Source: Planctomycetaceae bacterium (GTDB lineage: Bacteria; Planctomycetota; Planctomycetia; Pirellulales; UBA1268). Taken from it: a stretch of DNA of 33,173 bases. The translations under genes and the position numbers were made by a program. The notes below the pieces were generated by a model that ran no database searches, was not told the origin of the DNA, and was given only the letters and a program-made list of their open reading frames with translations. Of this stretch, positions 4,474 to 33,173 are shown in pieces. The stretch's first letter is position 1. Each line of letters opens with the position of its first letter. The stretch spans positions 1-33,173 of the forward strand of contig WTHB01000140.1 in assembly GCA_011523305.1 (NCBI GenBank), written 5' to 3'.

Positions 4474-6015
4474 ATGGCTCTCTCGTCCATTCTCACTACG
4501 CGGTTGCTGCGTTGCCTGAGCATCGGTTCTCTGGTCGTTGCTGTGTGTCTCCTGGGGTTTCCCGGCGGTGTACGGGATGCGGCAGCGCAGTTTGGTGGCC
4601 AGGGTGGAGGCCAAGGCGGCCAAGGCGGTCAAGGCGGCCTAGGTGGTGGACAAGGCGGGCTAGGTGGTGGACAAGGCGGGCTAGGTGGTGGACAGGGTGG
4701 TCAGGGCGGACAAGGCGGCACGGGGAGTCAGGCCGGTGGGTCGGGCGTGGTGATCAATCCACAGGGTGTGTTGCGGGTGCTGGCCATGCCCGATGCCAAA
4801 CTCACGCACGCGCAAAAACGGGCAGCCGTCGCCAGCCTTCCAGGTGATCTGCAAAAGCCATCGCCTCTCCGGAAGGTGGCACTCCGTCGGCTCGAAGCCG
4901 CGATGGCCGAGGCCACGGCCAACGGCCAACCGCTTCCGGAGGCCGTGGGAAACCTCGCAGGCCTCACCCGCTTGCAGTACGTCTTCGTTTATCCAGCGTC
5001 TGCTGATCAGCCAGGGGATATCGTGCTGGCTGGTCCTGCCGAACCATGGGTCGCTGATCCATTCGGACGACCGATTGGGATTGAGTCAGGGACACCGATT
5101 GTCCAACTGGAGGATCTCGCAGCTGTAATGCGGGCGTTTCCGCCAGGGCAGCCTGCCGATCTGCTGGTGGGCTGTTCCATTGATCCGACGCAGGAAGGCC
5201 TTGCCCGGATGCAGGCCTTCCTGAAGAACGTCGGCCTGGTGAATCCGCAAGGGACCCAGGGTGAAATTGTCAACGGATTGCAGGAGGCACTTGGGCCCCA
5301 AGTCGTCACGGTCGATGGCATCTCGCCGCACACCCATTACGCCCAGGTGTTGGTCGAAGCCGACTACCGAATGAAACTGATCGGAATTGGCCTGGAAAAG
5401 CCGCCCGTGCGGATGAGCACCTGGATCGACCTGACCTCGGCAAGTGGTGTCGCTGCAAATGCCCTGCAACGCTGGTATTTCACGCCATCCTATGACTGTC
5501 TGAAGATGACAGAAGACGATCTCGGTATCGAACTTGTCGGTGATGGAGTCAAACTGGTCGGAGCCGATGAAATGGTGATGCCAGACGGCAGTCGGAAGAG
5601 CAGTCAGCGGTCAAGCCGAGCCAGCAAACTCTTCACCCAGGCGTTCACCCTGAAGTACCCGCAGATTGCCAGCCGGCATCCGGTCTATGCTCAACTCCGA
5701 ACGCTCGTCGATCTGGCGATCGTCGCGGCCTATCTGCAAGAGCATGACGCCTATGGCCGGGTGGAGTGGGGAGCAGAGATGTTTCGAGATGAGGCTGCGT
5801 ACGCGATCGAACGGTTCCCTGCCCCCCAGCAGATAGACTGCGCCGTCAACGCCGTTCGCAAGGGCAGCCGGCTTTTGACACCAATCGGTGGTGGCGTGGT
5901 GATGACGCCTCGGCGAGCCCTCGATGCAGCCAACCTCCAGGTGGACGAAAATGGCGGTGTTGCGAGCGTTCGTGCTGGCCTACAGGTTCCAGCAGACCGC
6001 TGGTGGTGGGACTGA
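4474..6015 (+). CDS. Secreted Gly/Gln-rich protein, DUF1598-like
   Basis: A 513-aa exported protein. A hydrophobic signal segment (about residues 10-32) ends in AAAQF, a plausible signal-peptidase site. It is followed by a low-complexity stretch (about residues 40-85) made of QGG and LGGGQGG repeats, then a folded region from about residue 90. The segment around GIESGTPIVQLEDL and LVGCSIDPTQEGL (about 200-250) resembles, from memory, the planctomycete-restricted DUF1598 domain; no catalytic motif is recognisable. GAGGG lies 7 nt before the ATG and supports this start. The gene stands alone between dnaE and a convergent porin gene. Function is unknown; an extracellular or envelope-matrix role is only inference from the leader and Gly-rich linker. 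Confidence 0.85.
   Translation: MALSSILTTRLLRCLSIGSLVVAVCLLGFPGGVRDAAAQFGGQGGGQGGQGGQGGLGGGQGGLGGGQGGLGGGQGGQGGQGGTGSQAGGSGVVINPQGVLRVLAMPDAKLTHAQKRAAVASLPGDLQKPSPLRKVALRRLEAAMAEATANGQPLPEAVGNLAGLTRLQYVFVYPASADQPGDIVLAGPAEPWVADPFGRPIGIESGTPIVQLEDLAAVMRAFPPGQPADLLVGCSIDPTQEGLARMQAFLKNVGLVNPQGTQGEIVNGLQEALGPQVVTVDGISPHTHYAQVLVEADYRMKLIGIGLEKPPVRMSTWIDLTSASGVAANALQRWYFTPSYDCLKMTEDDLGIELVGDGVKLVGADEMVMPDGSRKSSQRSSRASKLFTQAFTLKYPQIASRHPVYAQLRTLVDLAIVAAYLQEHDAYGRVEWGAEMFRDEAAYAIERFPAPQQIDCAVNAVRKGSRLLTPIGGGVVMTPRRALDAANLQVDENGGVASVRAGLQVPADRWWWD
4639..4700 (+). repeat. In-frame 21-bp tandem repeat (Gly-rich linker)
   Basis: Three copies of a 21-bp unit (4639-4659, 4660-4680, 4681-4700/1) encode LGGGQGG. 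The first two copies are identical and the third differs at a few bases. Seven codons per unit keep the reading frame, so copy-number change would lengthen or shorten the linker without breaking the gene. Confidence 0.9.
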
Positions 6016-18985: not shown

Positions 18986-21226
18986 ATGCCGAAACGCGGC
19001 TTGTTCCCCGAACACTTGCTGGCAGACCTCATGGCCGGGGTCGTCGTCTTCCTGGTGGCCCTGCCGCTCTGCCTCGGGGTTCCGTTGGCTGCCAGGGCAC
19101 CGCTGTTCTCGGGGATCGTGGCCGGAATCGTCGGCGGCATTGTGGTCGGCGGGCTAAGCGGCTCACGGACCAGTGTTTCCGGCGGGTCTCCGGCCTTGAT
19201 CGCAATCGTGTCAGCCCAGACGACGGCACTGGGTGGGTTTGAGGGATTCCTGACGGCGGTTGTTCTCGCCGGGTTCATTCAGGTGGCATTTGGGCTCTTT
19301 CGGGCAGGGTTCATCTCGTCTTTCTTCCCGACCAGTGTCATCAAAGGACTGCTGGCGGCGATCGGCATCATCATTATTCTCAAGCAGCTTCCCCACCTGA
19401 TCGGCTACGACATCGATCCGATCGGTGAAATGTCCTTCAATCAGCCTGACCGTGAAACCACCTTTTCTGATCTGCCCAAGTCGTTCCGCTACTTTCTGCC
19501 AGGGGCAGCGACCATCGGCATCGGATCACTTGTGCTGGTGGTTGCCTGGGATCAGATTAAGTGGCTTCGCAAGACCCGCATTCCCGGGCCACTGGTTGCA
19601 GTCGTCGCTGGCACCGTCGCCAATATCCTGCTGAAGCGGGCTGGCAGCCCGTGGGCGATCGGACCAACCCATCTCGTGTCGGTGCCTCTCGGCGACGGCC
19701 CTGAGGGAATGATGGGACTGATCACCTTTCCGAATTTCGCCAGTCTGGCCGACTCTCGCGTCTATGTGGCGGCAGTCACCATTGGCGTAATTGCCAGCCT
19801 TGAGTCGTTGCTGGCAATCGAGGCTGTCGACAAGATTGATCCACGGCAGCAACGAACACCTCGGGACCGTGAGCTACTTGCCCAAGGTGTGGGGAACGTG
19901 ATCTGCGGCCTGCTGGGGGGGCTGCCGATCAGTGCTGCGGTGATTCGCGGCACCGCCAACGTCAACGCCGGCGCTAGAACCCGGCTGGCAACGGTGTCAC
20001 ACGGGGCATTGCTGCTGACCTGTGTGCTGCTTTTGCCGGCATTGCTCAATGAAATCCCACTGGCCACGCTGGCCGCCATTCTCATCAAGACCGGATATCG
20101 GCTGACCAATCCCAAACGCTATCGACAGTTGTGGCGGGAGGGGTTTTCGCAGTTCATTCCCTTTGCCGCGACGGTTGCTGCGATTGTGCTGACCGACCTG
20201 TTGGTCGGCATTGGGATTGGGCTCGCCTGTAGCGTGGTGTTTATTCTGCACTCCAATTACCGCAGGCCGCTGACCCGAACGCTCGAGCGGCACACCTCCG
20301 GTGACGTGGTCCGGGTCGACCTTGCGAGTCAAGTGACCTTCTTCAACCGGGCAGCCCTGCAAAAGGTGCTCTACGAGGTTCCTCCAGGTGGAACCCTGCT
20401 GATCGATGCCACGAATACTGACTTTATTGATCCGGATGTACTCGACCTGCTGGTCGACTTTCAGAAAACCGGAGCCCCTGCCCGTTTTGTGCAGTTGAGC
20501 CTGGTCGGCTTTCAGGATCGCTATCCGGCCCTACGGGATGAGATCCGGTTCGTGGAGCACTCCAGCCGTGAAGTGCAAAAGGCGGCGAGTCCAGCCCAGG
20601 TGCTGGCGATCCTCCTGGAGGGGAACGACCGGTTTCGGGCCGGCATTCCCCTGAAACGCAGCCTTGAGCGGCAGCGGACGGCAACCGCAGACAGTCAGCA
20701 TCCTCTGGCGGTGATCCTCAGTTGCATTGACTCACGGTCTCCGGCCGAGGCAATTTTTGACCTTGGTCTTGGCGATGTTTTCAGTGTTCGGATTGCGGGC
20801 AACATCACTACCGCCGAAATCATTGGCAGTGTGGAGTTTGCCGCCACAGTGGCGGGCGCGAAACTGGTGGCTGTGGTGGGGCATACCCGCTGCGGTGCCA
20901 TCGAGGCGGCAGTTACAGAGAACTGTAATCCGCGAGATGCGGTTGCCGCTGACTGCAGTGAGGTCCGCCGAATTCTTCACGAAGTGGGGCGGGTGATTCA
21001 CGACGACGATTGCCGCGGACTCACAGTGGCCGGTGCCGGGTCACAGCAGGCAGTGGTCGATGCGGTGGCTCGCCGCAATGTCGTACGAGTGGTGCGAAAA
21101 CTGCTTGAAGGCAGTGAGTCGTTGCCACGACTGATCACCGAGGGCCACCTCGGTGTGGTGGGCATGATGTACGACGTTGTCACCGGCGAGGTTGAGGTGC
21201 TCGCTGAGACGCGTCATGGCGTCTAA
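18986..21226 (+). CDS. SulP anion transporter fused to STAS and beta-carbonic anhydrase
   Basis: A 746-aa three-part protein. Residues 1 to about 430 form the SulP membrane domain with many hydrophobic segments, including MAGVVVFLVALPLCLGVPL and GLSGSRTSVSGGSPALI, typical of the transport core. A STAS-like domain follows (about 445-540, LIDATNTDFIDPDVLDLL). The C-terminus (about 545-746) is a beta-class carbonic anhydrase with zinc ligands Cys580, His633 and Cys636 and the catalytic dyad Asp582/Arg584. SulP-carbonic anhydrase fusions are known and are thought to move bicarbonate or related anions while interconverting CO2 and bicarbonate; the substrate here is inferred. The ATG at 18986 has GGGAG about 9 nt upstream and fits the usual N-terminus; an upstream in-frame TTG (18923) adds unrelated residues. 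Its 3' end overlaps the convergent tsaD. Confidence 0.95.
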   Translation: MPKRGLFPEHLLADLMAGVVVFLVALPLCLGVPLAARAPLFSGIVAGIVGGIVVGGLSGSRTSVSGGSPALIAIVSAQTTALGGFEGFLTAVVLAGFIQVAFGLFRAGFISSFFPTSVIKGLLAAIGIIIILKQLPHLIGYDIDPIGEMSFNQPDRETTFSDLPKSFRYFLPGAATIGIGSLVLVVAWDQIKWLRKTRIPGPLVAVVAGTVANILLKRAGSPWAIGPTHLVSVPLGDGPEGMMGLITFPNFASLADSRVYVAAVTIGVIASLESLLAIEAVDKIDPRQQRTPRDRELLAQGVGNVICGLLGGLPISAAVIRGTANVNAGARTRLATVSHGALLLTCVLLLPALLNEIPLATLAAILIKTGYRLTNPKRYRQLWREGFSQFIPFAATVAAIVLTDLLVGIGIGLACSVVFILHSNYRRPLTRTLERHTSGDVVRVDLASQVTFFNRAALQKVLYEVPPGGTLLIDATNTDFIDPDVLDLLVDFQKTGAPARFVQLSLVGFQDRYPALRDEIRFVEHSSREVQKAASPAQVLAILLEGNDRFRAGIPLKRSLERQRTATADSQHPLAVILSCIDSRSPAEAIFDLGLGDVFSVRIAGNITTAEIIGSVEFAATVAGAKLVAVVGHTRCGAIEAAVTENCNPRDAVAADCSEVRRILHEVGRVIHDDDCRGLTVAGAGSQQAVVDAVARRNVVRVVRKLLEGSESLPRLITEGHLGVVGMMYDVVTGEVEVLAETRHGV

Positions 21227-22259
21227 GGGCTTTGGCGTGCCGTCCCCGATCCGTGCCGGGGAGGACATCCAGAGTGGGGTCTGCCGTGAGACCCTGTTCC
21301 AGGTGTTCCCAGGCTATGGCCCCCATAGCGGCGTTGTCGGTGCAGTACTCAAACGGTGGGATGAGCATGGTCACCCGCCGTTTGCGACCGAGCGTTTCCA
21401 GGGCGGTGCGGAGAGCGGTGTTGGCCGTCACCCCGCCACCGACGGCGACGGTGCGACAGCGAGTGCGGGTCAGGGCCAGATCTACCTTGGCAATGACGGA
21501 ATCGACCGCAGCCTGTTGAAATGACGCCGCGAGGTCGGCTCGTTCCTGCTCGGAGAGTGTTCGGTCGGTAGCTGCAGCGGGCGGGCGAACCTGGTAGCGG
21601 ACGGCGGTCTTCAGGCCACTGAAACTCAGGTCGAGTCGGGACCGGTCATTGGCCAGTGGCCGCGGGAACCGGTGAGCCCGAGGGTTGCCGGTGGTCGCAA
21701 GGCGTTCGATTTCGGGGCCGCCAGGGTAGCCCAGGCCGAGGAGGCTGGCGGCCTTGTCGAAGGCTTCGCCAACGGCGTCATCAATGGTGCCCCCAAGCCG
21801 TACGAGATCGAGTGGTCCGTTCAATTGAAAGAGTGATGTATGCCCGCCACTGGCAACCAGGCCAACTGCTGGGTAGGTGAGTTGGTCTCCAAACGCGAGT
21901 CGGCAGGCATACAGGTGCGCGGCGATATGGTCATAGCCAACGAGTGGTACCTGGAGCACGCCAGCAATCGCCTTGGCGGCGGCGAGACCAACCAGCAGCG
22001 ATCCCACCAACCCAGGACGGACAGCGACGGCGACTGCCTTGAGGTCCTGGCGGTTGATGGCAGCGGCAGAGATGGCCTCATCAATGACTGGAATGATTCG
22101 CTCGACATGAGCCCGTGAGGCGATTTCTGGGACGACGCCTCTCCAGCGGGCGTGGAGGGCATCTTGACTGGCCACCACGCTCGAGAGCACGTCGCGTGAT
22201 GGTCCGATGACGGCAGCAGCCGTTTCGTCGCAGGTGGTTTCAAGGGCGAGCAGAGGCAC
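21180..22259 (-). CDS. tsaD: tRNA N6-threonylcarbamoyladenosine synthase subunit TsaD
   Basis: Transfers threonylcarbamoyl to A37 of tRNAs that read ANN codons, together with TsaB and TsaE (359 aa). The ASKHA-type fold begins with LALETTCDETAAAV. The metal-binding histidines are His111 and His115 in YDHIAAHLYA. Further family segments are PGLVGSLLVG, VASGGHTSLF, LGGTIDDAVGEAFDKAA, YPGGPEIE, LSFSGLKTAV, VAVGGGVTAN and CTDNAAMGA. A charged tail of about 25 residues after LPGTDRG is not typical. The last 47 bp overlap the 3' end of the SulP fusion gene on the other strand. TsaB and TsaE genes are not in this window. Confidence 0.96.
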   Translation of the reverse strand: MPLLALETTCDETAAAVIGPSRDVLSSVVASQDALHARWRGVVPEIASRAHVERIIPVIDEAISAAAINRQDLKAVAVAVRPGLVGSLLVGLAAAKAIAGVLQVPLVGYDHIAAHLYACRLAFGDQLTYPAVGLVASGGHTSLFQLNGPLDLVRLGGTIDDAVGEAFDKAASLLGLGYPGGPEIERLATTGNPRAHRFPRPLANDRSRLDLSFSGLKTAVRYQVRPPAAATDRTLSEQERADLAASFQQAAVDSVIAKVDLALTRTRCRTVAVGGGVTANTALRTALETLGRKRRVTMLIPPFEYCTDNAAMGAIAWEHLEQGLTADPTLDVLPGTDRGRHAKALRRHDASQRAPQPRR

Positions 22260-22404
22260 TGGTGGCGATGTTGTTGGGGGGCGAAGTGGTCTGGAGTTCT
22301 AGCCCCAAGACTACGCCGTCTGCCGGAATGGCGTAAGGTGCTCAGTGGTTGTCCAGAAAAGCGAGGTTTTGTCCAGTTTTCTGTGGGACTCATCCTAGAT
22401 TTGC

Positions 22405-23120
22405 CGCGGCAGGATGCCGCGATTGAGCACGAGCGGAGGGCTGCAAAACCTTGGCTTTGCAGGCCTCTTCCGCTCAGGGAAAGACAGGGAGGATGCCGGG
22501 TTTTCCGTGAAGGGAGCGAGCCAGGCGGCTTGGTTCCGGCGAAAGTCTCGTCGCCGCGAAATCGGCCGCGGTGTGGGGTGGTTTTTCGTTGTCGGGTGTG
22601 GTGGCCGATTCCGAAGGCTCCTCGAGCGTTCGCCGATCACCTTCACCTCGTTGTGTCGTGACGTAGGCAGGATTGTGGCTTTGTGCAGTTACCCCACAGC
22701 ATCCCCCCGCGGCAGGCTGCCGCGAATGCGCACCAGCGGAGGCCTGCAAACCTTGGCTTTGCCGGCCTCTGCCCCCTAAGGGAAAGACAGGCAGGATGCC
22801 TGTCTTTCCGTGAAGCTAGCGAGTCGGGCGGCTCGGTGCCGGCGAAAGTCTCGTCGCCGCGAAATCGGCCGCGGTGTGGGGTGGTTTTTCGTTGTCGGGT
22901 GGTGTGGCCGATTCCGAAGGCTCCTCGAGCGTTCGCCGATCACCGACACCTCGTTGTGTCGTGACGTGGGCAGGAGTGTGGCCTTGTGCAGTTACCCCAC
23001 AGCATCCCCCTACGGCAGGATGCCGAGAATGGGCACCAGCGGAGGTTTGCAAACCTTGGCTTTGCAGGCCTCTGCCCCAAGGAAAGACAGGCAGGATGCC
23101 TGGGCTTTCCGTGAAGCTAG
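22405..23120. repeat. 303-bp tandem repeat array, about 2.4 copies, rich in hairpins
   Basis: Copies span 22405-22707 and 22708-23010, with a partial third copy from 23011 to about 23120. Independent landmarks repeat at exactly 303 bp (for example GAAAGTCTCG at 22541 and 22844). Each unit holds three inverted repeats: CGCGGCA/TGCCGCG around GGA or GGC (22405-22421, 22708-22724); GAGGCCTGCAAA with a 12-nt partner (22739-22769, one mismatch); and a 13-bp GGAAAGACAGGCA stem with a GGA loop (22781-22809). The third copy ends at the stop codon of the DUF1207-like gene. No credible coding frame is seen. This fills most of the 857-bp gap between tsaD and that gene; the rest (22260-22404) shows nothing recognisable. 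Confidence 0.93.
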
Positions 23121-24352
23121 AAGTCGTACCACATGCCGATGCCGGCGCGGTTCTGGTTGACAAACACAAACTCGTACTGTGGGTCGGATCCGTAGAGGTA
23201 TTCGAAGCCGATGCGGAAGAGTTTTTCACTGCTGCGTCCCCGCCAGGCCCAGCCGGTCTGGACGCAGACGTTGCCGCCCCAGTCGAGTTCCTGACGGGAC
23301 ATGCCGTTAATGGCAAGGAAGGGTGCGCCGTGAATGCCGGTGGGCCGAGCCTGAATCAGCTCTGTGCCAAACTGAAAGGCCCACGGTTCGGAGCCGCCGG
23401 AATTGAAGAATGAATAGCCGACTTCGCCGTACAGTCGCAGCCAGTCATACAGGTAAAACGAGTTGCCCCAGACAATCGCATCCCGGACATAGTTGATGCG
23501 CGGATACCGAGGATATTTGATCTGAAATTCATCGCCAAGGTGGGCGCTGATGTGGTAGTAGGCGAGCTTAGTCTGCCAGCGACCAATGCCGTAGACCAAC
23601 GGAATGCCAAAGCGGAAGTCAGATGAGCGAAGATCGCGTTCGTCTTCAGGGTCAAGGCGGACGAAGGCTGCTCCTTCGATCTGAATCTCAAAGCCTTGCG
23701 GATGGAGGACCGGGTCAGATCCGTAGCGAACGATTGAGGCCCGGCCGCCCAGGGTTGAGTCCCAGAGCCAGCCATTCTGCTCGGCCGGATTGATGATTGA
23801 GGGGTCAGTGTCGTCGTACCAGACGGTGGCGAAGCGGGGTTCTTTCGGGCCGGCAAGGTAACTGGTGTAGATCAAGTTGTTGGGCATCAACTGCCACCGC
23901 CAGGGGCGGGCCGCCCAAAGGTCGTCAAAGCATTCAGGGAAGCCACTGATCCCGACGCAGTCGCCTTCGTAGATGCTGGACGCAGGATCGAAGGGCATGT
24001 CGAGCACGATTGGGCCACGTGACTCAATCGGGGGGAGGACGCGAACGTCAGCATCTGGGACCGGTGGTACGAGTTCGTAATCAGTGTTCAGCAGGCCGTG
24101 CTCGTAGGCGTCATTGAGGCTGTCGAGTTGGTGCGGAGACGCTACGGCGTGTGCTACGACATCCCTGAATCGCAGGTCCATGCCTGACGAGTCAGGCCGT
24201 TCGTCGAGTGCCCGAGCATGTGCCAGCGGAGGCATCATGAGTCCACTGGCCATCACCATCAGGCCAGCGACCAGCCAGCATCGCCGCGTGGGCCGCGATG
24301 CTGAGCTCCAGGCCAGGGGGAGGGAGCCAAATGGGTGAACGGTGCGTGTCAT
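23117..24352 (-). CDS. DUF1207-type outer-membrane protein
   Basis: A 411-aa exported protein of the planctomycete DUF1207 type, recognised from segments WQLMPNNLIYTSYLAGPKEPR, LWDSTLGGRASIVRYG, FEIQIEGAAFVRLD, SDFRFGIPLVYG, YYHISAHLGDEF, RINYVRDAIVWG, GAPFLAINGMSRQELDWGGN and the ending GIGMWYDF. Alternating hydrophobic and aromatic residues and a C-terminal Phe suggest a beta-barrel in the outer membrane. The signal segment is WLVAGLMVMASGLMMPPLAHA. The frame continues 37 codons upstream of the chosen ATG (24352), but that part lacks homologous character. No ribosome-binding site is clear. The stop codon falls inside the third copy of the 303-bp repeat. Function is unknown. Confidence 0.88.
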   Translation of the reverse strand: MTRTVHPFGSLPLAWSSASRPTRRCWLVAGLMVMASGLMMPPLAHARALDERPDSSGMDLRFRDVVAHAVASPHQLDSLNDAYEHGLLNTDYELVPPVPDADVRVLPPIESRGPIVLDMPFDPASSIYEGDCVGISGFPECFDDLWAARPWRWQLMPNNLIYTSYLAGPKEPRFATVWYDDTDPSIINPAEQNGWLWDSTLGGRASIVRYGSDPVLHPQGFEIQIEGAAFVRLDPEDERDLRSSDFRFGIPLVYGIGRWQTKLAYYHISAHLGDEFQIKYPRYPRINYVRDAIVWGNSFYLYDWLRLYGEVGYSFFNSGGSEPWAFQFGTELIQARPTGIHGAPFLAINGMSRQELDWGGNVCVQTGWAWRGRSSEKLFRIGFEYLYGSDPQYEFVFVNQNRAGIGMWYDF

Positions 24353-24795
24353 AGAGACTGGTGGGCAGACGGTCGACCGCACAGCTGCCGCCCAGCAGGT
24401 GGGCTGCACCCTTGGTGAGTCCGTTGTGTGGTTTTTCTGTTGAGTGAGTAGAAACGACGGCAACTCTAGAGGGATTGTCGTCCAGGGCCATCACCGGTTT
24501 TTGCGGGCAGATGGCGTGTCAGGTCGGTTTTCGCTGGGGCCCCTCAGTCGCGTTGCTTACCTCACCTGTGCGGACTCCCCGGTTACGAGTGTGGCGGGGG
24601 GCTGCGGAAGGCTCAATTCTTCCTAGAACGCCCCGGCTTCCGAACTTCTCTTCGGTGCAGGGCAGGAGGCTCGGTTGGCTGGTATCATGCGTTAGGCTGC
24701 GTCAGAAGCGTGTGCGGCAAGCAGCGGCTTCCAGGACAACTGGAATGCAGTGGCCTTGTCACCCTGGTTCGAATGGCTGAGGAGGGTTGCGTCAC
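24353..24795. other. 443-bp divergent intergenic region
   Basis: This separates the DUF1207-like gene (-) from the flavin-reductase-like gene (+), so it should hold promoters for both. I see no coding frame with gene-like character. The only clear structure is a short inverted repeat at 24729-24745. GGAGGG at 24781-24786 is the ribosome-binding site of the next gene. Confidence 0.5.
24729..24745. promoter_or_regulatory. 17-bp inverted repeat upstream of the flavin-reductase-like gene
   Basis: TTCCAG and CTGGAA form perfect 6-bp arms around GACAA, ending 50 bp before the GTG start. The size fits a dimeric repressor site or a small leader hairpin; neither is demonstrated and no regulator gene is adjacent. 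Confidence 0.3.
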
Positions 24796-32523: not shown

Positions 32524-33173
32524 TTAGAAGGTCTCTTTTTCGACTAGGTTGCCGTCCTGATCCCATGTCAATTTCAAAAATGGCTTGCCTTCCTTGAAAC
32601 TAGTTTCTGTTCGCTTCGAACCAGTCCGGAAGTACACCGTGTAAATAATCTGCTTGCCGTTGATATGTTGTTTTTCCCAATTTCGACTGCCCCGAGCCGC
32701 AGAGGACCAACCGATCGACTGACCATGAAGTTTGCCATTCAAGTAAGGTTCTTCTGACAATATTGAACCATCGTTATAAAACAGAATTTTCTTCCCATGT
32801 AGTTTGCCGTTCAAAAAACGAGATTCCCATGCCAGTGATCCTTTGCGTTTTGGTGAAACCCCGACACCTGTAAAAGGCTCATCTTCGCCCTTGGCGTAGG
32901 CAATACGTTCTTTGTTTGCCCCATCGTGATAGGTTAAATCTTGGAATGGATATTTCCGTCGAGGAGCAAAATGCTCGTTGTCAAAGGTTAGGTCAGAATC
33001 AGGATTTTCTTTGCCAAGGTCTATTATCTCGCCAGGCTCATCTACCTCTACGCGCCGAGGTATGTGAGCGGGAAAGGTCTTCTCTTGAGGTGTGTGGACG
33101 GGAAAGGTCTTCTCTTTCGTCAGGTTGCCCGCTTCATCCCATTCCATTCGTAACGTTACACCACCGTATTTGT
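32524..33173 (-). CDS. YwqK/MORN-repeat-like protein, 5' end outside the window
   Basis: About 215 residues are visible. The frame is open through the window edge, so the start lies beyond 33173. Repeated short units such as FLNGKLHGKKILFYNDGS, YLNGKLHGQSIGW and HINGKQIIYTVYF are the G-x-x-x-G-x-x-x-x-Y pattern of MORN-like/YwqK (COG2849) proteins. That family is annotated as an antitoxin in some genomes, but no toxin gene is adjacent and the role is unclear. The ending LTWDQDGNLVEKETF closely resembles a segment at the visible start, MEWDEAGNLTKEKTF, so modules seem to be duplicated. A 10-residue unit (EKTFPVHTPQ, EKTFPAHIPR) is repeated near the left of the protein. The gene is AT-rich compared with the bulk of the window. 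Confidence 0.8.
   Translation of the reverse strand, partial: KYGGVTLRMEWDEAGNLTKEKTFPVHTPQEKTFPAHIPRRVEVDEPGEIIDLGKENPDSDLTFDNEHFAPRRKYPFQDLTYHDGANKERIAYAKGEDEPFTGVGVSPKRKGSLAWESRFLNGKLHGKKILFYNDGSILSEEPYLNGKLHGQSIGWSSAARGSRNWEKQHINGKQIIYTVYFRTGSKRTETSFKEGKPFLKLTWDQDGNLVEKETF
33070..33116 (-). repeat. 30-bp in-frame duplication in the YwqK-like gene
   Basis: GGGAAAGGTCTTCTCTT occurs at 33070 and again at 33100, a 30-bp period that encodes the repeated KTFP segments. Ten codons per unit leave the frame intact. Confidence 0.85.

Follow-up and report, generated by a model that had tools for sequence, protein, structure and literature searches.

Why does a 303-bp tandem array of hairpins end at the stop codon of a protein gene, and what kind of element is it made of? 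The array lies in a 33,173-nt stretch of a Planctomycetaceae genome (contig WTHB01000140.1, assembly GCA_011523305.1), the whole of which is called the window here. The original prediction described two full copies and one partial copy of a single repeat unit with three hairpins, and offered three options for it: a 3'-UTR element, a small-RNA locus or a REP-like repeat. Tandem Repeats Finder places the array at 22404–23120 with a period of 303, 2.4 copies and a score of 1169, which agrees with two complete copies and one partial copy; those starting at 22404 and 22707 are 87–91% identical to each other. The three hairpins are also present and constitute an element, A, folded on the minus strand. 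The relevant strand is thus the sense strand of the DUF1207 gene, a correction to the original prediction. The 303-bp period stands, but the unit itself resolves into two separately dispersed elements, A and B. The features of the locus, ordered from the DUF1207 gene, are as follows.

22404–23120, strand not assigned: tandem array, period 303 (Tandem Repeats Finder)
23117–24463, minus strand: DUF1207 gene (PF06727, Pfam 8e-15; ORF list), stop codon TAG at 23119–23117
23114–23120, minus strand: CTAGCTT, the 5' motif of element A, overlapping the DUF1207 stop codon (sequence, motif statistics)
23007–23113, minus strand: element A copy A3, three hairpins, 3 nt past the DUF1207 stop (model R1, E 1.6e-22; gap; fold)
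22827–22953, minus strand: element B copy B2, a single long hairpin with conserved internal loops (model R3, L001 1621–1747; fold z -3.6)
22704–22812, minus strand: element A copy A2 (model R1, E 1.6e-21)
22524–22650, minus strand: element B copy B1 (model R3, L001 1318–1444; fold z -3.2)
22401–22509, minus strand: element A copy A1, more decayed than A2 and A3 (model R1, E 7.7e-16)
21180–22259, minus strand: tsaD-like gene (PF00814, Pfam 8e-84), next downstream of the array on the same strand

Read along the minus strand, the order is DUF1207 stop, CTT, A3, linker, B2, a linker ending in CTAGCTT, A2, linker, B1, a linker ending in CTCCCTT, A1 and the tsaD-like gene. The CTAGCTT that precedes A2 (22813–22819) stands where no gene ends. 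On the minus strand, every A copy of the array forms three hairpins, with z values of -1.9, -3.5 and -4.4 for A3, A2 and A1; the least clean fold is that of the outermost copy, A3. The partial copy reaches 23120 and covers the DUF1207 stop codon (23117–23119) and one extra base.

A search for the unit elsewhere, as the original prediction had proposed, found copies in the rest of the genome and in relatives. The 303-bp unit has 21 matches in the 3.49-Mb genome, and these fall into two blocks, at unit positions 3–113 (A) and 123–248 (B). Element A, about 105 nt long and comprising three hairpins, has some 30 copies in this genome. Its covariance model (R1) gave 33 matches here at E up to 1, a few of them weak or on the opposite strand of an array, and 35 came from a broader model (R2) at E up to 0.1. 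Contigs often end inside A copies (L015, L017 and L018, on contigs C47, C79 and C114 of genome G000), which means that the repeats break assemblies and that the copy numbers are minimum values. In an evenly drawn sample of the order, element A was found in 30 of 36 genomes of the window's family and in none of the 160 genomes outside it; in a phylum sample of 294, the window's own genome alone scored. Within the window's genus, A was detected in G000, G004 and G007 and not in G002, G005, G006 and G009. The enolase flanks of the latter four look more A+T-rich, and loss of A within the genus may accompany a drift in base composition.

Element B accounts for most of what remains of the array unit. 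It is about 85–128 nt long and forms one long hairpin, with the layout GGUCGGCGAACGCUCGAGGAGC-hairpin-GCGACGAGACUUUUGCCG. Matches to its model (R3) are confined to the same family as A and often number at least 30 per genome; B is even more abundant than A, occurs family-wide and often stands alone. It is commonly located 40–70 nt behind a gene or between convergent genes. Copies of B were noted in the window (22524–22650 and 22827–22953) and at L055, L112, L143, L185 and other loci.

Folding and covariation analysis, also proposed originally, revealed strong covariation in element A. Across 77 copies, pairing holds in 93.5% of cells, and both partners vary at 34 of 35 pairs. Covariation scored 0.664 in these copies, against 0.155 for shuffles and no more than 0.137 for slid partners; the 77-copy alignment was fitted to the model and is thus biased toward the structure, and the first alignment and a plain reading agree with it. 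At the ends of orthologous TOP6A/Spo11-like genes, 33 of 35 pairs were changed on both sides (19 matches, site and surroundings). The loops, by contrast with the stems, hardly vary: UCC, GCCAAGG and UCC are nearly invariant, and loop columns are 94–100% conserved with the exception of two positions, compared with 40–80% in most stem columns. In a variant of A, the middle hairpin is swapped for a short one with a CUCC-type loop. A pseudoknot between a CUUGG connector and the GCCAAGG loop was convincing by eye, but its covariation (3.92) equalled that of shuffles (3.93), and the loop stays conserved even where the connector diverges. No Rfam family matched above its gathering score, and sub-threshold matches to Phage_DGR and radC were taken as chance. 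We also considered a coding repeat, given that 303 is a multiple of three and long frames span the array. This was ruled out because copies elsewhere carry indels that are not multiples of three and because the conserved features are arm pairing and loops.

The end of the array at a stop codon had been read as a sign that it grew into, or was copied from, that boundary. The coincidence is real, but it is no peculiarity of the array: the 5' motif of A, CTNGYTTCACG, overlaps stop codons at dozens of other loci. The proposed growth from the gene boundary was close to what we find, in that the gene-adjacent copy occupies the usual position of A and the remaining ones are tandem duplicates with a comparable 5' motif. 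According to an ad hoc codon-based gene caller, the upstream gene is in sense with element A for 113 of 127 copies, a count that includes tandem members, so that not all copies are independent; the downstream neighbour points either way with roughly equal frequency. Between stop codon and A there are 3 nt in 38 cases and 4 nt in 11; C precedes the stop in 47 of these 49, compared with 311 of 614 (51%) for genes in the loci at large. Copies distant from genes retain the flank CTNG(C/T)TT, which ties the motif to the element or to its target, not to translation. Two copies lie in sense 7–17 nt past tRNA-Asn and tRNA-Ala genes (L156 on contig C37 and L029 on contig C131 of G000), so the address is gene ends in general and not stop codons alone. 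Both observations weaken a translation-coupled model.

In genomes G020 and G031, copies of A that are 94–100% identical mostly sit in flanks of about 50% identity, that is, unrelated ones; a few near-identical pairs in G031 share their flanks and represent block duplications. Occupancy at orthologous genes is patchy. Among 30 enolase orthologs read, A follows the gene in G031 alone; seen from the element side, it does so in G000 and G004 as well. Behind TOP6A, many genomes carry it, some copies being complete and others truncated, and the protein finishes with WLD and stop either way; the C-terminus is the same with or without A. Near-identical copies in unrelated flanks, together with this patchy occupancy, argue that A spreads. 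We infer insertion from presence and absence, because no empty site alignable base by base was found among the orthologs read.

Some junctions are suggestive of how copies arise. At L076, L078, L027, L098, L193, L195 and L216, a lone 5' hairpin arm ends at the loop and is followed directly by a new element start. This suggests template switching, slippage or insertion at hairpin loops, the first two being the likely origin of the arrays. Behind TOP6A at L198, L204 and L214, in different genera, A breaks off at the first loop, and a common sequence starting CGCCACGAC(A/G)GGC comes next; it may represent another repeat family or a junction that recurs. As for a mobiliser, the IS200/RAYT transposase (Y1, PF01797) is absent from the A-bearing genomes G000, G004, G007 and G020, and seven PF01797 regions of relatives (31 kb around the genes) contained one weak A match and no clear link to A. 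A RAYT or IS200 mobiliser, being absent or unlinked, was rejected.

Asking whether the pairing is maintained in RNA or in DNA, we counted the two mismatches that distinguish them. RNA stems tolerate G.U but not A.C. In the acceptor and T stems of 31 tRNAs from the window's genome, which served as a control, there were 24 G.U and 0 A.C. The stems of element A contained 41 G.U and 68 A.C, and thus do not show the wobble tolerance expected of a cis-regulatory RNA on the transcribed strand. The corresponding counts were 16 and 13 for element B and 6 and 8 at the TOP6A site. The difference between A and the tRNAs has a Fisher p of 2e-9, which is only a guide as the cells are non-independent. Mismatches from decaying copies dilute this test, and the 20 best-preserved A copies show the same trend (9 G.U and 12 A.C). 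With G.U no commoner than A.C in A, against 24 to 0 in tRNAs, the pairing looks DNA-level. Arms that are complementary without wobble preference, on either strand, fit DNA hairpins or cruciforms, or the template-switch correction of quasi-palindromes, better than selection on a transcript, although the argument is indirect. The same count may serve as a simple general means to separate RNA-level from DNA-level palindromes.

REPs are high-copy palindromes that lie chiefly 3' of genes, in gaps whose neighbouring genes are co-directional or convergent (PMC3733652). Like REPs, REPINs and BIMEs, element A is a short palindrome with many extragenic copies, predominantly downstream of genes; unlike them, it has three hairpins in fixed order with specific loops, a fixed distance of 3–4 nt behind stops and a strict orientation. 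The feet of its hairpins carry no GTAG/CGTC tag: the 5' foot is CACG after CTNGYTT, and the 3' end is GGGT-like. ERIC, Correia/NEMIS, RUP and CIR are small mobile repeats or MITEs of bacteria described in a review (PMC2229807) as about 100 bp long and strongly folded. A resembles them as a dispersed, strongly folded non-coding repeat of that size, and CIR in particular also has separate arms and a conserved exposed loop; the passages of the review consulted describe no stop-codon address for such repeats. A differs from them in lacking TA ends and terminal inverted repeats, its consensus ends CACGG... and ...CCGGGU not being complementary. Literature on planctomycete repeats yielded only general REP surveys. 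Element A is most like a REP or another small non-autonomous DNA repeat, without the REP tag, the RAYT of REPs or the terminal inverted repeats of MITEs. Single-strand transposition of the IS200/IS605 type, which leaves no visible target duplication, sets hairpins a short and constant number of bases 3' of a brief target motif. A shares this spacing; it differs in its target, C-TRR, in having no coding part and in the absence of a Y1 transposase from the genome.

Among the three options of the original prediction, the evidence leans towards the REP-like one, because of dispersal as a unit, patchy occupancy and the missing wobble signature, though the canonical tag and RAYT are missing too; the 3'-UTR option stays open because of the sense orientation after stop codons. 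We judge it marginally probable that local tandem amplification produced the array from a composite unit, made of two dispersed palindromic repeats specific to this family, and that A is a non-autonomous mobile DNA palindrome. Element A would settle with a fixed orientation immediately 3' of C-TRR, a site that in practice is a stop codon after C, leaving the protein unchanged, and would then persist for long while both arms of its hairpins change together. Of this reading, the structure of A, its spread as one unit, its address, its range across the family and its missing wobble preference are established. The hairpins may work as cruciforms or single-stranded DNA whose loops a trans-acting enzyme recognises, and tandem arrays such as this one would come from slippage or template switching at them. 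Being downstream of genes, A copies are probably transcribed, and any effect on transcript ends would be secondary. Counted against this reading are the lack of a PF01797 mobiliser in the four A-bearing genomes, the missing base-exact empty site and the fact that the sense bias and the gene ends shared across genera also fit a selected RNA. A narrower form, which we regard as doubtful, holds that A is a lineage-specific palindrome whose insertion machinery, of a novel type, addresses the C-TRR stop context in one orientation, the hairpins being kept as DNA with recognition loops; insertions would then be nearly harmless.

The leading rival, a possible transcript-level role, also as an exaptation, would make A a cis-acting functional RNA of the 3'-UTR, one whose spread was favoured because it sets or shields transcript 3' ends, either as a stem-loop roadblock to 3'-5' exonucleases or through loops bound by an RNA-binding protein. 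It is a tentative reading with a real chance of being right: the sense bias behind upstream genes with unbiased downstream neighbours, the constant placement at the ends of genes, two tRNA genes among them, the presence of A at the same gene ends in different genera, the compensatory change at the TOP6A site and the conserved loops all speak for it. G.U is not preferred in A, however, enolase occupancy is patchy, near-identical copies dispersed recently, and 3'-end protection does not need a tight 3-nt distance from the stop codon. Transcription terminators, with A acting after stop codons and B between convergent genes, would account for GC-rich hairpins behind genes; we consider them unlikely, since no hairpin is followed by a U-tract in the consensus, the array region has about as many terminator-like sites as expected by chance (3, against 1.8 in shuffles) and three hairpins with conserved loops exceed the needs of an intrinsic terminator. 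High copy number downstream of genes would suit a canonical REP mobilised by a RAYT transposase (PMC3733652), and CGTC REPs are reported without a dedicated transposase of their own (PMC3733652), yet the missing tag and the PF01797 results described above make this very improbable. We give next to no credence to a local duplication or assembly artefact without wider meaning, which the tandem copies and exact period might suggest: a local duplication of no function is refuted by the copies in the genome and the family and by the covariation, and 9–13% divergence between array copies and unique flanks on both sides speak against an artefact.

Dispersed palindromes are already known; A differs in docking a fixed few bases behind stops with a single orientation throughout a bacterial family. 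Its loops are untouched, its stem pairs almost all rewritten from copy to copy, and it offers a clean system for separating DNA-level from RNA-level maintenance, and it can also show what mobilises such repeats where RAYT is absent. Two other repeats in the window are unrelated to the array: a 21-bp tandem repeat of 5.9 copies at 4603–4719, inside a long reading frame (4474–6015), and a 30-bp duplication at 33057–33116, close to the contig end.
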